46,035 nt of DNA from the IMG/VR virus record IMGVR_UViG_3300029448_000062, positions 1,127 to 47,161 of that record; one strand, 5' to 3'. Numbering within the stretch: position 1 is the first letter of the stretch; every line of letters starts with the position of its first letter. The notes beneath the pieces were generated by a model. It was not told the DNA's origin. It was given only the letters and a program-made list of their open reading frames with translations, and did no database searches. Below are positions 2,915 to 20,136 of this stretch, in pieces. This DNA comes from a virus. Position numbers and translations under genes: made by a program.

Positions 2915-3649
2915 TTAACCGTTAGCGTAGTCGAAAGCTGCCCCGTGTATCTTAATCATAATTTTACCTGCTGTGTAAGCTGCTTCCGTAGCATCACCTG
3001 AAGTTAAATAAAGATACTTTTTAGTAAGAGCCGATAGTGTTGTTCCTCCATCTGCCTCATTATGAAGACCTAATGTTAAATCACCATTATTAAACAGAAC
3101 TGTGCCACTTGTTACAGCCGCATTTTCTGCTGTTGTTCCTGTTGCAGAACACACTAGGTTAATATCTGGATCACCACCTGTTGGAACTTCTAGGCACATA
3201 AACTCTACTAAATAGGGTATGCCGTTTACAGCACTTGTAAGTTCAGCGATATAGGCATTTGCTGCCCCACCATCTGTACCGATAACATCATCGGCTGTAC
3301 CACCTGATGCTAAACCACCATGTAAATCAATCAATATTGTGGTTATAATATCACCACCGATTTTATTTATGAATGTGTTAATAGCGGCATCTGTAATACC
3401 AGAACCGTGAGCATTTGGGGTTACGTTAAATATTGTAGCAGCTGTACCTAAACTTGAGTTATTAGCACCTGTTGATGTACCTGCGGCTACGATGTTGTCT
3501 CTACCTGAAGTTGCTACTTTTTGTACTTCTAAGACACCACCACTTGATGCAACAATCTGTTCTGTAATAGCTCCAGTTGTTGCGCTTTGAGAAACGGTTT
3601 TAAGACCGTTCTTAGAACGGACTGCACCTGAAAAAGTTGTATTAGCCAT
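2915..3649 (-). CDS. Virion protein, possible decoration protein (244 aa)
   Basis: A Gly/Ala/Thr/Ser-rich protein with an AAGAP-like low-complexity style typical of abundant phage surface proteins. The start at 3649 is preceded by AAGGAGAATTAC, a strong ribosome site, which fits high expression. It follows the major capsid protein gene after a 94-bp gap. The N-terminus (MANTTFSGAVRSKNGLK) resembles head proteins I recall from uncultured marine podoviruses. Exact role unknown; decoration or head-vertex protein is most likely. Confidence 0.7.
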   Translation of the reverse strand: MANTTFSGAVRSKNGLKTVSQSATTGAITEQIVASSGGVLEVQKVATSGRDNIVAAGTSTGANNSSLGTAATIFNVTPNAHGSGITDAAINTFINKIGGDIITTILIDLHGGLASGGTADDVIGTDGGAANAYIAELTSAVNGIPYLVEFMCLEVPTGGDPDINLVCSATGTTAENAAVTSGTVLFNNGDLTLGLHNEADGGTTLSALTKKYLYLTSGDATEAAYTAGKIMIKIHGAAFDYANG

Positions 3650-3743: not shown

Positions 3744-4655
3744 TTAAGCGGCTCCTGTTGAACCGTAAATTCCAAGTGGATCAGATACACCGAAAGAGTA
3801 TCTCTCTCTTGCTTTGTATCTTACGTTTCCAGTATTGAAATCTCCGTCCATACCAGTTGCCATAGGAGTTCTAACGAAATGCTTCAATCCGTTAGGAACG
3901 TCTGTCATTATAAAGAAAGCATCGCTATCTGTTAGATAATGATTAACTCTATAGCCCTCTGGTATAGAACCATTGGTCTTAATAGCGTTGATATCATTAT
4001 CAGCAGTTCCTACTCTCAAGTCTGTTTGTAGCAATCTAGTTGCTGTAAACATAAGTGCAGGAGGCACGATTAACTTTCTTGGCTTTGCTGCGATTAACAG
4101 TCCTCTTTCATCTACGAAAGCAGCGATGTCAATGACAGCTTGCTCTAGAGATGTTTCGTTGAGGTCAGCCGCTACTGATGGCTGATTTCTGTTGTTACCA
4201 CCTGCCACAGTACCATGAGAGGCACTAAACAAGAACGCACCGTCACCAGATGTGAATGTATCAAATCCAGTGTTAAGCAGTGATGCTGCTTTGGTTTGCT
4301 TTGTATAAGCCATAGCTCTGGCAAGAGCCTTTGTATAACGTGCTGAAAGGCTGTCATACAAATTGTCTTCCATTGCTTCCTCAGTGATAGAGAAACCCAT
4401 AGCGACAGTTTCATGGTTGAAACGTGCTGTGAATGACTCTTGTGCTGTGTCATAAGAGATGGATGCACCTTCCTGTTTAACAGGAGCCGCACCGAACCCA
4501 GACAGCTTTACTTCTTCCTCAAAACTTCTATCGGAGTTTTCAGTTTCATAAATGTCTGCGTGTTCATTCTCATAGCCATCGTACTCTAGTCCAAACAGTG
4601 CGTTAAGACCAGGTAATAACTCTTTTAAGAGTTGCGCTCTACTTACTACTGCCAT
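3744..4655 (-). CDS. Major capsid protein (303 aa)
   Basis: Probably the HK97-fold major capsid subunit, closest in my memory to the Mu gpT-type major head proteins. Supporting points: length near 300; an acidic N-terminal arm (GYENEHADIYETENSDRSFE); a long spine-like helix region (EAMEDNLYDSLSARYTKALARAM); a P-domain segment with HGTVAGGNN; and RKLIVPPALMFTATRLL. It lies between scaffold-type and decoration-type genes. AGGAGGTGGTTAATC before ATG at 4655 is an excellent ribosome site, as expected for the most abundant virion protein. Confidence 0.8.
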   Translation of the reverse strand: MAVVSRAQLLKELLPGLNALFGLEYDGYENEHADIYETENSDRSFEEEVKLSGFGAAPVKQEGASISYDTAQESFTARFNHETVAMGFSITEEAMEDNLYDSLSARYTKALARAMAYTKQTKAASLLNTGFDTFTSGDGAFLFSASHGTVAGGNNRNQPSVAADLNETSLEQAVIDIAAFVDERGLLIAAKPRKLIVPPALMFTATRLLQTDLRVGTADNDINAIKTNGSIPEGYRVNHYLTDSDAFFIMTDVPNGLKHFVRTPMATGMDGDFNTGNVRYKARERYSFGVSDPLGIYGSTGAA

Positions 4656-7054: not shown

Positions 7055-7076
7055 AAAAAGTTACATATAACTTTTT
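7055..7076. repeat. Palindrome family copy
   Basis: AAAAAGTTA-CATA-TAACTTTTT, directly downstream of the stop of the 62-aa gene and upstream of groES on the minus strand. It is followed by further T residues. Near-perfect arms. Confidence 0.8.
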
Positions 7077-12378: not shown

Positions 12379-12405
12379 TTTTTTCTTTACATCCTTTCCT
12401 CTTAT

Positions 12406-12480
12406 AGGTATACCTGTATAATAGGTATACCTTTTATAGGTATATCTTTAAAATTACTTCGTAATTTAACAGGTATACCT
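12406..12480. promoter_or_regulatory. Operator-like array: four AGGTATACCT palindromes
   Basis: Perfect 10-bp palindromes AGGTATACCT lie at 12406-12415, 12423-12432 and 12471-12480, with a one-base variant AGGTATATCT at 12438-12447. An additional inverted repeat, AAATTAC-TTC-GTAATTT, lies at 12451-12467. The array occupies the gap between divergent genes: the HNH gene (minus, start 12378) and the membrane protein gene (plus, start 12481). Spacing of 17, 15 and 33 bp suggests cooperative binding of a dimeric regulator. No candidate regulator gene is adjacent. Confidence 0.65.
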
Positions 12481-12711
12481 ATGGTTCTAGAACTAGCTAC
12501 AATATGGAACATACTGCTAACAGTCATAGTAGCACCTATAGCCTGGTATATCAAATCCCAAAATGATGAACTCAAAAGAGTTCAAATACTTCTAAACAAA
12601 ACACGGGAGCAGTACGTTCATAAGAATGACCATAAAGATGACATAGATAGAGTGGTCGAACACTTAGTGAGACTAGAACAGAAGCTAGATAGCCTATTAG
12701 CCTCCAAATAA
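12481..12711 (+). CDS. One-helix membrane protein with coiled coil (76 aa)
   Basis: A plus-strand gene inside the minus-strand late block. I take ATG at 12481, the first base after the last AGGTATACCT site; the open frame extends upstream through the operator array, but that part encodes only a repeat-derived peptide. The N-terminal membrane segment is LATIWNILLTVIVAPIAWYI (residues about 5-24), followed by a charged coiled coil to the end (RVVEHLVRLEQKLDSLL). No clear ribosome site is visible, so leaderless or weak translation is possible. The layout resembles small holin-like or accessory phage proteins; function unknown. Confidence 0.6.
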   Translation: MVLELATIWNILLTVIVAPIAWYIKSQNDELKRVQILLNKTREQYVHKNDHKDDIDRVVEHLVRLEQKLDSLLASK

Positions 12712-12945: not shown

Positions 12946-13443
12946 TCAATCTCCAAGTAAGGTTTTGATCTTTGCCTCTAGCTCCTCTTTTATCTGATCA
13001 GCATCTCTGGACTCATCAACTGAAATAGCAGTATTGAAAAGCTGTACGTCCTTGAGCTTGCCCAGAAGTTCCAAGGCTCTGACTCTGGATGTTGGACTGC
13101 CATGTTCAAAATCTGATGCCTCTCTTTCGAGTCCTGTAATAATTTGATGTGATCGATTGAGCGATTGACTCCGATGCCTTTCTTCTAATTGCAGTTTCCT
13201 GTCTTCGTAAATTGGGGTTAAATTGGGGGATCGGAATAATAGGTGAGCCTCTTTCCTGACATTGGCATCACTGAAGTTCTTACAGTCATATGAGGCTTTA
13301 TAGCTATCGGTTAGCGTGAGAGGTTGATCTACTCCTATTCCTAATATGCCATCAATGAATTTAGACTGCTTGGCAGTCAGACGAGTCCGAGTTTTTGTCT
13401 GCCCTTTTACAAGCTTTAACTTTGGTTTTTTATGGTCTTTCAT
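12946..13443 (-). CDS. terS: Terminase small subunit (165 aa)
   Basis: The DNA-recognition subunit of the packaging enzyme. RLTAKQSKFIDGILG (residues 21-35) followed by LTLTDSYKASYD and NVRKEAHLLFRSPNLTPIYEDRK is the helix-turn-helix plus central helix pattern of the TerS family. The C-terminal half is helical and charged. It is separated from terL by the plus-strand membrane protein gene and HNH. AGAGGAG lies upstream of ATG at 13443, and a copy of the 22-bp palindrome lies just before that, at the head of the late block. Confidence 0.8.
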   Translation of the reverse strand: MKDHKKPKLKLVKGQTKTRTRLTAKQSKFIDGILGIGVDQPLTLTDSYKASYDCKNFSDANVRKEAHLLFRSPNLTPIYEDRKLQLEERHRSQSLNRSHQIITGLEREASDFEHGSPTSRVRALELLGKLKDVQLFNTAISVDESRDADQIKEELEAKIKTLLGD

Positions 13444-13460: not shown

Positions 13461-13482
13461 AAAAAGTGGTCTATAACTTTTT
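13461..13482. repeat. Palindrome family copy before terS
   Basis: AAAAAGT-GGTCTAT-AACTTTTT, 18 bp upstream of the terS start and immediately before its ribosome site, at the beginning of the minus-strand late block. The left arm has one mismatch. A possible operator or promoter element for late transcription. Confidence 0.7.
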
Positions 13483-13534
13483 TATTTGGGTGCTAAAAAG
13501 TACAATATACCACTTAAAAGAACAAAAGGTAAAC

Positions 13535-13663
13535 ATGAATATAAGGCTTATACAGAGGCATACAGGACTTTTAGGTAGTCTAGGTTACGAAACACCTCCA
13601 GAGGCTACTGACAGGCTTTATATTCGATCTGAGCATTTTGACCTCAAAAAAAAAATCCTTTAA
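13535..13663 (+). CDS. Possible small gene (42 aa)
   Basis: ATG at 13535 follows AAAAGGTAAAC, a reasonable ribosome site, and encodes MNIRLIQRHTGLLGSLGY followed by a polar chain ending in LKKKIL. It diverges from terS. The last codons lie inside the first iteron-like repeat, which is odd for a conserved gene. No family is recognised. It may be a real small early protein or chance coding at the edge of the origin-like region. Confidence 0.35.
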   Translation: MNIRLIQRHTGLLGSLGYETPPEATDRLYIRSEHFDLKKKIL

Positions 13664-13881
13664 AATCAATGACTTAGAAGTTCACTTTCTGTACTTTTAG
13701 ACATTTGGCTGAAAAAAAACCCTTTAAAAACAAGGACTTAGTTTTTGCACATATACCCTTTTAAACAAAGGCTTTGAAATAAAACCCTTTAAAATCAAAC
13801 ACTTAGCACATAGCCACAATAAAATAAGGGTGTAAATAATAGCTGAGAGGCTAGAAAAAACCCTTTAGAATCAATGACTTA
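13651..13881 (+). repeat. Iteron-like repeats, candidate replication origin
   Basis: Five copies of a 20-26 bp direct repeat of the type AACCCTTTAAAATCAATGAC followed by TTAG. The CCTTT cores start near 13658, 13721, 13757, 13786 and 13862. The third copy is degenerate. A second repeat, CAATAAAATAAGGG, occurs at 13817-13830 and again at 13917-13930. The region is AT-rich, non-coding and bracketed by two copies of the 22-bp palindrome. Direct repeats in an AT-rich gap are typical of initiator-binding origins, but no initiator gene is obvious. Confidence 0.6.
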
Positions 13882-13903
13882 AAAAAGTCATATATAACTT
13901 TGA
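13882..13903. repeat. Palindrome family copy after iterons
   Basis: AAAAAGT-CATATAT-AACTTTGA, directly abutting the last iteron-like repeat. The right arm is imperfect at its end. Confidence 0.65.
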
Positions 13904-13981: not shown

Positions 13982-14010
13982 TTGACATGGATATCAAGTT
14001 ATGATCTAAC
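13982..14010 (+). promoter_or_regulatory. Candidate promoter for the 14 kb leader
   Basis: A perfect -35 TTGACA at 13982-13987, then a 17-bp spacer and TCTAAC at 14005-14010 as a moderate -10 (4 of 6). Transcription would start near 14016, just at the GGGGC hairpin that opens the structured non-coding segment upstream of the 69-aa gene. Confidence 0.5.
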
Positions 14011-14011
14011 A

Positions 14012-14361
14012 GAGGTGGGGCAATGCCCCTTGTACGAATCATGTGGCAAAAATACAACAGAAAGGAAATCGCCAAGAACCAGACATCGCAAGCCAAAATG
14101 GGTCTCAAAATCTGACATTAGCTGTAATATGTAGGTAGCCAGAAAGTCGAGAGAAAATCGCCCCCAATAAATCCACCAATCAAAAGGTGAGTAGAGCGAG
14201 CCAGAGAAATAGCCAAACTCAAAACAGAAACAAACCAAGGACTAGGCTCTGCGATGTAGGGCAATTTTCTGAGGTCTTTCGACATCAAATAAATTAGATG
14301 GGGCGAGCAATCGCCCCTCTTAATTTTACGAGAGGTGCAGAAATAGTTCTGCATCTCTTTT
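14012..14361 (+). ncRNA. Candidate structured leader RNA or small RNA
   Basis: About 350 bases without a convincing gene on either strand. Hairpins visible on the plus strand: GGGGC-AAT-GCCCC (14017-14029); a possible GAGCC/GGCTC helix (about 14198 and 14246); GGGGCGA-GCAA-TCGCCCC with a GNRA loop (near 14300-14317); and a final 12-bp stem with TTTT (14331-14361). AGAGGTG occurs both at 14011 and in the 5' arm of the final stem, so the 3' arm could pair with either. Promoter, structured segment, terminator-like hairpin and then a gene is the layout of an attenuator or riboswitch-type leader. No known class is recognised. Confidence 0.45.
14331..14361 (+). terminator. Terminator-like hairpin before the 69-aa gene
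   Basis: A 12-bp stem AGAGGTGCAGAA / TTCTGCATCTCT (one G-U) with loop ATAG, ending in TTTT. It stands only 20 bases before the ATG at 14382 and 10 before its ribosome site, so it may act as an attenuator rather than a simple end. Confidence 0.55.
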
Positions 14362-14381
14362 AGAATTAATGGAGTGAAAAA

Positions 14382-14591
14382 ATGAAAATTAAACCAAATA
14401 AAATTTTTGAATTTTGGAGTTGTGACGAGATTGCTGAGTGTGTCGATGGTGTAAGTGAAGATTTATATCGATCTCTCTGGCGAATGGTAGGGCAAGAGCA
14501 ATCAAGAGATTCCTTAGTTGTTGCTGACATTTGGAACAAATTCAGCGATGAAGAAAAATTAGAGTTAAACAGTTTGAAAGTAGGTGAGTGA
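14382..14591 (+). CDS. Unknown acidic protein, first of accessory module (69 aa)
   Basis: Starts at the ATG of the shared leader GGAGTGAAAAAATG. The sequence is acidic and helical (SCDEIAECVDGVSEDLYRSLWRM and FSDEEKLELNSLKVGE), with no signal peptide or membrane segment. No family is recognised. It is the first gene after the candidate structured leader and precedes a hairpin (GAGCCTC-ACT-GAGGCTC). Being the first plus-strand gene of the module, an early host-directed role is possible but unsupported by motifs. Confidence 0.65.
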   Translation: MKIKPNKIFEFWSCDEIAECVDGVSEDLYRSLWRMVGQEQSRDSLVVADIWNKFSDEEKLELNSLKVGE

Positions 14592-14643
14592 AATTACATA
14601 GGATGAGAGCCTCACTGAGGCTCGACTCCCCTGTAATTACAGG
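14591..14643 (+). promoter_or_regulatory. Intergenic hairpin
   Basis: A 7-bp stem GAGCCTC-ACT-GAGGCTC at 14607-14623 sits inside an outer helix, ATTACA with GG after a bulge, paired to CCTGTAAT. It follows the stop of the 69-aa gene and precedes the leader of the next. There is no T-run, so it may be an RNA-processing or translation-control structure. Confidence 0.45.
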
Positions 14644-14674: not shown

Positions 14675-15373
14675 ATGACAATATTATCAAAAGAAATGAT
14701 CGACGTAATTGAAACAGTGAATGCAATGATCGAAACAAATCGAAACACTAACAAGGCAAACAGTGAGGCGATCAACAAGGGCAACATCGATATCTATGCA
14801 ACAACAGTTGCAAGCTTTTCCAAATATAAAGCTGATACGATAAGCACCAAGGACGTTAAAATCTTTAGAGGTCAATGCTCAAACGATTGTTTCCTTAGTC
14901 CATCGAAGACCAAAAAGGTAGTTGAAAAAACTCAATGGGTCTTTGAGGACTTCAAGAAAAACAAGGTTTTCAAATCATGGCATAACCTTGGATATGCTGA
15001 GATTGTCACTGAGATTAAGAACAAGTTCGAAGAACTTGGGATCACATCAGAGGCAAAGTTGATTAAGCATTTTGATCCAAAGAGACAGGATCAGTCAGAC
15101 GTAGAAAAGCTTGTTGAAAAAATCCTAGGCAGACCATCCAAAAACGAGGGTGGATGGGTTGGTGGATTGGATGCCAGAGACCTTAGAAAATTCGAAGAGG
15201 TATTTGAGGCAACCAAGGATGCAAAAGATGAGATGAATGGCAAAGGTGCGAAAGCTGAGAAGACCAAAAAAGAAGAGCAGAAGATCAACGAAGAGGTCAA
15301 CGAATGCTCAGATATGTTGGTTGCCTCTGCTAATGCTGACAATCAAGCAGACCTAGACAACAACCCATTCTGA
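14675..15373 (+). CDS. Unknown soluble protein with SSB-like acidic tail (232 aa)
   Basis: I use ATG at 14675, after TAGGAGTGAAAACC, rather than the longer frame that would translate the upstream hairpin. N-terminal helical region, then a globular part with CSNDCFLSPSKTKKVVEKTQW and ILGRPSKNEGGWVGGLD, then a Lys/Glu-rich linker. The last residues, ADLDNNPF, resemble the acidic-PF tip of single-stranded DNA-binding proteins. It is directly upstream of the MoxR-type ATPase and could be its client, adaptor or a DNA-binding partner. No family is recognised. Confidence 0.7.
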   Translation: MTILSKEMIDVIETVNAMIETNRNTNKANSEAINKGNIDIYATTVASFSKYKADTISTKDVKIFRGQCSNDCFLSPSKTKKVVEKTQWVFEDFKKNKVFKSWHNLGYAEIVTEIKNKFEELGITSEAKLIKHFDPKRQDQSDVEKLVEKILGRPSKNEGGWVGGLDARDLRKFEEVFEATKDAKDEMNGKGAKAEKTKKEEQKINEEVNECSDMLVASANADNQADLDNNPF

Positions 15374-15383
15374 TTATTTCTAA

Positions 15384-15424
15384 CAGGGCAGTTTAAAGTT
15401 ATAGCTAACTTTTTTACTGCCTTG
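15384..15424 (+). repeat. Palindrome copy with extended stem
   Basis: Core TTAAAGTTA-TAGC-TAACTTTTT at 15393-15414, enclosed by CAGGGCAGT (15384-15392) and ACTGCCTTG (15416-15424), which pair over 9 positions with one G-U. It begins 11 bases after the stop of the 232-aa gene and precedes the shared leader of the ATPase gene. As RNA it forms one long hairpin; no T-run follows the outer stem. Confidence 0.75.
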
Positions 15425-15473
15425 ATAGATGCAATCAGCATCATCTCAAACAATAATTATAAGGAGTGAAAAA

Positions 15474-19996: not shown

Positions 19997-20046
19997 GCTA
20001 CTGCCTGCTATACAGGGTTCACTCCCTTTTGCCTATCGGAAACTCT

Positions 20047-20075
20047 GGGGGAATTTTTATTCCCCCATTTTTTTT
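20047..20075 (+). terminator. Rho-independent terminator
   Basis: Perfect stem GGGGGAAT-TTTT-ATTCCCCC followed by A and eight T residues. It ends the plus-strand accessory module after the 93-aa gene. Confidence 0.85.
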
Positions 20076-20101
20076 ATAGCAGGAAACTCCCCCATATCTC
20101 A

Positions 20102-20136
20102 GCCCTCAGACCTTTTGGTCTGGGGGCTTTTTTTTT
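20102..20136 (+). terminator. Rho-independent terminator, second in tandem
   Basis: An 11-bp stem GCCCTCAGACC-TTTT-GGTCTGGGGGC with one T-G pair, followed by nine T residues. It backs up the terminator 27 bp upstream. Confidence 0.9.

Follow-up and report, generated by a model that had tools for sequence, protein, structure and literature searches.

A conserved leader RNA ending in a predicted 22-bp hairpin precedes exchangeable small genes in uncultured marine phages

In the window, the whole stretch of 46,035 nucleotides of viral DNA that was analyzed, a promoter at position 13982 is followed by a region in which no plausible gene was found (14010–14381). The original prediction described this region as a structured leader laid out like an attenuator, a riboswitch, or a long regulatory RNA. 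The locus raises the question of which kind of RNA is encoded here and what role it may have in the expression of the genes behind it.

Genomic setting, relatives, and upstream DNA

The window is part of a 51.8-kb IMG/VR virus record carrying genes for terminase, portal, capsid, primase-helicase, a Sak-like annealing protein, and holin. The source phage is marine and podovirus-like. By terminase large subunit, its nearest isolated phages are HTVC023P-type pelagiphages and phage DSL-LC04 (51–56% identity), from which it differs in gene order around terS. The leader site is the point of divergence between the terminase side, running leftward (TerS, 12946–13443), and a rightward operon comprising a gene in an exchangeable slot and genes for a 232-aa protein, an AAA ATPase, and a VWA/DUF2201 protein. 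The 232-aa protein is encoded by the first conserved gene past the slot (14675–15373, plus strand), which was listed as 261 aa from GTG 14588 and has its conserved start at ATG 14675. A search of known-phage DNA with the region gave no match, and in a search of genome contigs no relative of the 232-aa protein and a single weak match to TerS were obtained.

Relatives of the leader were gathered using three queries, the downstream gene, the hairpin, and TerS. This yielded about eight further contigs, representing six distinct near leaders and a distant lineage, L041–L043, whose TerS is 65% identical to that of the window. Such a leader is absent from L044–L051 (TerS ~60%), where a short 5′ UTR runs straight into the 232-aa homologue, and the element is therefore confined to one phage clade. 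As most relatives are close, the independent evidence comes mainly from two lineages.

The predicted sigma70-type promoter (13982–14010, plus strand) consists of TTGACA (13982–13987) and, 17 nt further, TCTAAC (14005–14010), as originally described. TTTGACAT occurs at the equivalent place in 7/7 leaders compared, including that of L041, 336–445 nt upstream of the first ATG. The −10 element is poor, which is why the promoter was missing from the list produced by a consensus scan. Upstream of the promoter and past terS, four to five direct repeats of the AAAnCCTTTAAAATCAATGACTTA type are located at 13646–13881 (no strand assigned), spaced mostly by 64–76 bp; their CAATGACTTA core units recur in L004, L006, L013, and L041. 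These repeats are likely protein-binding DNA, and the question arises whether they are origin, packaging, or activator sites. They are followed at 13884–13901 (again unstranded) by a copy of the palindrome AAAGTT-N6-AACTTT with one mismatch, a probable operator.

This 18-bp palindrome is dispersed over the window in 9 exact and 5 one-mismatch copies, compared to 0 and ~0.6 expected. The copies start at 7057, 13463, 13884, 15395, 18239, 19645, 20338, 21470, 23859, 25006, 28077, 30461, 36540, and 41548 and lie in genes as well as between genes; the excess was seen only at a spacer of 6. The palindrome is retained in the relatives, the L044 clade included, and is absent from the pelagiphage loci compared. 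As a set, the copies are reminiscent of the stoperators of mycobacteriophages or of dispersed centromere sites. One copy is enclosed by a hairpin at 15367–15441, between the genes for the 232-aa protein and the ATPase, and at the same site L044 has a different hairpin, likewise around a palindrome.

Structure and conservation of the leader

The untranslated leader extends from 14011 to 14381 on the plus strand (~370 nt). The segment 14010–14381 folds better than all of its shuffled versions (z = −4.15), and the relatives have leaders of ~300–400 nt. Among relatives the ends are alike and the middle is variable; in L002 the middle has been exchanged as one block. Together with the covariation described below, this agrees with the proposal of a geneless, structured leader, and we are almost certain that the leader represents a conserved structured RNA. 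Candidate reading frames within it (a 50-aa frame starting with TTG, and ATG 14043, which has no ribosome site) were rejected as they were, by eye, frame-broken or absent in relatives.

Near the expected transcript start, a 5′ hairpin, GGGGC-AAU-GCCCC (14017–14029, plus strand), is not significant on its own (z = −1.36). L004, L007, and L013 have a GC-rich 5′ hairpin of other sequence, and that of L041 is unconvincing. With its 5-bp stem and 3-nt loop, the hairpin was considered as an N4-type virion polymerase promoter; this was rejected because neither loop nor stem is conserved and because the only matches of the 3043-aa protein of this phage are to LPD38 and to uncharacterized phage families. 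A linear motif, GAAAGGA...CCAGAnATCGCAAG (14060–14092, plus strand), has columns that are invariant in the near relatives, while L041 retains only GAAAGGAG and CCAGA of it. The GAAAGGAG...CCAGA-type motif comes after TTTGACAT, usually past the G+C-rich 5′ hairpin. A further hairpin, GCTCTGC-GAT-GTAGGGC (14246–14262, plus strand), preserves its pairing in L006 as GCTCTGC-GAT-GCAGAGC. RNAalifold gave no supported common fold for the leader middle, where structures vary between relatives; long-range pairs that it proposed there were discarded since they had no covariation support (energy −8.2, positive covariation term).

The 3′ end of the leader is formed by two stems on the plus strand. The penultimate hairpin, GGGGCGA-GCAA-TCGCCCC, is present at 14300–14317 as noted earlier. 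The final hairpin (14320–14369, 50 nt, z = −7.65) had been read as a 12-bp stem followed by TTTT, but it comprises 22 bp, arranged as 9 and 13 pairs around a single C·U mismatch, and includes the TTTT among its paired bases. A ribosome-binding site, GGAGTG (14371–14376, plus strand), stands immediately past this hairpin, and the ATG that it serves ends at 14384. Taken together, the last two stems (14294–14375, 82 nt) have a z of −7.87, with 0/200 shuffles folding as well.

Across the relatives, 97.7% of the cells in these two stems are paired, and 8 of the 29 pairs are altered on both sides, a degree of covariation that 0/500 shuffles reached and that slid versions did not show at all. Seven of the doubly altered pairs belong to the final hairpin. 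The penultimate hairpin, which is missing in L004 and L007, has one covarying pair, a position at which C-G, U-G, A-U, and G-C all occur. In the final hairpin, the A-U pair beside the mismatch is replaced by G-C in L013 and L006, and in L041 the upper stem is largely rewritten on both strands, with 22–23 bp still paired. In the relatives the hairpin likewise directly precedes the ribosome site, and it is retained where the upstream sequence differs (L002, L004, and L007) and where the downstream gene differs (L003, L004, L007, and L041). For these final two stems only, the original proposal was thus borne out by the relatives, whose changes were compensatory and kept the pairing rather than destroying it. 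A covariance model of the hairpin found one match in the window and one per carrier, on the leader strand, accompanied by weaker mirror matches on the opposite strand; no match was found in the pelagiphages (HTVC023P-type, DSL-LC04) or in the L044 clade.

Judged by this comparison of sequences, the last two stems are under selection as structures, and their conservation as such, G-U pairs included, points to RNA. The near relatives are 92–98% identical at the hairpin, loop and sequence included, a retention that could reflect recombination or use at the DNA level. Rfam searches at gathering score and at E up to 10 yielded only chance matches and no family, both for the leader and for six related loci. 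The leader RNA is a new family of an ordinary kind, without an Rfam entry, and as such a well-defined and testable one among uncultured marine phages.

Possible roles of the final hairpin

The reading that we favor, with a probability of roughly one half, is that the leader hairpin processes or protects the message in the manner of an RNase III site. It is suggested by the compensatory evolution of both last stems and the rewritten yet paired upper stem of L041, by the constancy of the hairpin while its flanks are exchanged, and by the lack of a free U-tract. Transcription would start from the promoter where the operon diverges from the terminase genes and open the rightward operon with ~370 untranslated nt, whose 3′ end would present the G+C-rich stem and then the 22-bp hairpin; the ribosome site of the first small gene, whichever that is, would follow directly. 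Host RNase III would cut one or both strands of the hairpin around the mismatch, freeing the upstream leader and trimming the messages to a uniform, short 5′ end at which the ribosome site is exposed, as happens at R1.1 in T7 early messages. The duplex, with 22 pairs in the window and 22–23 in L041, has the length of one to two helical turns, approximately that of an RNase III site. Alternatively, an uncut hairpin may protect and insulate the message by preventing pairing between the variable leader and the ribosome site; the trace left would be the same if the hairpin served to block exonucleases or to insulate that site. We infer transcription, cleavage, transcript ends, and the effects on stability and translation from these features.

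RNase III sites of phage T7 stand before genes. In the case of T7 R1.1, cleavage at a 49-nt stem matures and protects T7 mRNA (PMC8708148). The window hairpin is likewise an imperfect hairpin of ~50 nt in a phage mRNA, a likeness of length and layout. It differs, however, in lying in a 5′ leader after a host-type promoter and in having one mismatch where R1.1 and related T7 sites have a large internal loop.

The leader could instead itself be the product, a phage small RNA of ~330 nt with CCAGAnATCGCAAG as conserved seed and a 3′ end made at the hairpin; to this extent the label of a long regulatory RNA is possible. The untranslated length, held at 305–420 nt in all leaders, the short invariant motif inside a fast-changing body, and the block exchange of the L002 middle would fit such a product. 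However, the middle structures vary and gave no supported common fold in RNAalifold, little of the motif is left in L041, and a merely tolerated leader would look alike, so that we regard this explanation as rather unlikely. In P4-type phages, the immunity leader likewise opens an operon with a long untranslated stretch that could release a small RNA; by contrast, nothing here pointed to lysogeny, seq/cI complementarity, or premature termination.

That the element acts as DNA, as part of a replication origin or as a packaging site beside terS with its hairpins extruded, appears improbable. Direct repeats and palindromes at 13463–13901 do adjoin terS, and the covariance model sees the hairpin on both strands. 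On the other hand, the conserved stems use G-U pairs, as RNA would allow, a ribosome site marks the end of the element, and the repeats lie upstream of the promoter, outside the leader. GC skew was considered as a sign of an origin and discarded, since it merely tracks gene direction.

Quite improbable as well is an intrinsic terminator or attenuator, in which the final hairpin would stop the majority of transcripts, with read-through to the 69-aa gene permitted by a regulated alternative fold. This was the first interpretation of the sequence, a strong, GC-containing stem and then UUUU ahead of a gene resembling such elements, and a lax pattern scan catches the adjoining stem at 14300. However, no free U-rich tract of 7–8 nt was found after the final stem: in the near relatives 3–4 of the 8 nucleotides past its upper part are U, and these are paired, absorbed by the lower half of the 22-bp helix, which is itself kept by compensatory change and so under selection. 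The tract is not conserved, reading UUCU, UUUC, or UAGC in relatives, and in L041 the upper stem is followed by UAGCAUUA and no U-tract. The genome's own strong terminator candidates (20046–20067, 20101–20128, and 20420–20401) are each followed by U8. As for the alternative fold, AGAGGTG does occur twice, at 14011 and 14331, but pairing of the 5′ copy with the 3′ arm has a probability of ≤0.008, whereas nearly all pairs of the local stem reach ~0.9–1.0, and this copy is absent in L007 and L041, leaving no conserved antiterminator partner. Thus, because the U's are paired and unconserved and the second AGAGGTG partner is uncompetitive, there is no support for termination or for the proposed switch. 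Left uncorrected, the terminator call would mislead operon prediction.

A ligand-binding riboswitch or a leader-peptide attenuator, which might be suggested by a small gene preceded by a long, structured 5′ UTR, is very improbable, given that there is no Rfam match, no conserved aptamer-like core between the leader ends, no reading frame kept with a ribosome site among relatives, and, because the downstream genes are swapped, no constant regulated gene directly past the leader.

A swap slot for small genes and a second RNA element

The small genes located after the leader hairpin and before a second element (14592–14643) differ from phage to phage. The present occupant in the window is the 69-aa gene (14382–14591, plus strand; phrog_6757, unknown function), relatives of which occur in L002 (twice), L006, and L013. 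A 101-aa gene is found in L004 and L013, a 117-aa gene in L007, a 126-aa gene in L006, a 100-aa gene in L002, and a 123-aa gene in L041; the slot of L003 is empty. The leader hairpin forms the fixed left edge of this swap slot, and 14592–14643 forms its right edge. This defines a slot for small-gene exchange between two conserved RNA structures, and such slots are good places to seek new counter-defence or host-takeover genes.

The second element (14592–14643, plus strand, z = −5.04), which also covaries, begins at the slot gene's stop codon and consists of a stem, AAUUACA/UGUAAUU, around a GAGCCUC hairpin. An alternative hairpin, CCUGU-AAUU-ACAGG, shares the 3′ arm UGUAAUU with this stem, and the two are mutually exclusive; of the two, the long stem is by far the more stable (−21.6, compared to −4.4 for the short one). 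L041, aligned here by hand and not by MAFFT, rebuilds both stems with other bases, CAAAGUAG/CUGCUUUG and CCUGC-UUU-GCAGG. In the window, L002, L004, L006, L007, and L041, the stop codon that ends the last slot gene is located at the 5′ arm of the element or within it. Two-state pairing and stop position are thus common to two lineages with different slot contents. On the basis of these two lineages and a hand alignment, the second element is more promising as a switch candidate than the AGAGGTG pairing proposed originally.

Hairpin and second element might together act as RNA frames of the slot that couple an exchangeable gene to the conserved gene behind it, an idea that we regard as speculative and unlikely. 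An incoming slot gene would gain a ribosome site right after the hairpin. A ribosome finishing the last slot gene would break the stem of the second element, because the stop codon falls at or in the 5′ arm, and the 3′ arm would then form the alternative hairpin. The switch at the second element is itself a prediction.

Two further features were observed elsewhere in the window. A cluster of inverted repeats with AGGTATACCT units is located at 12398–12482, between the terminase genes and beside a 68-aa HNH-like gene. On the minus strand, 3647–3693 matches the Mu-gpT-DE RNA of Rfam (RF03012) just over the gathering score, between the capsid gene (3744–4655) and the gene at 2915–3649.
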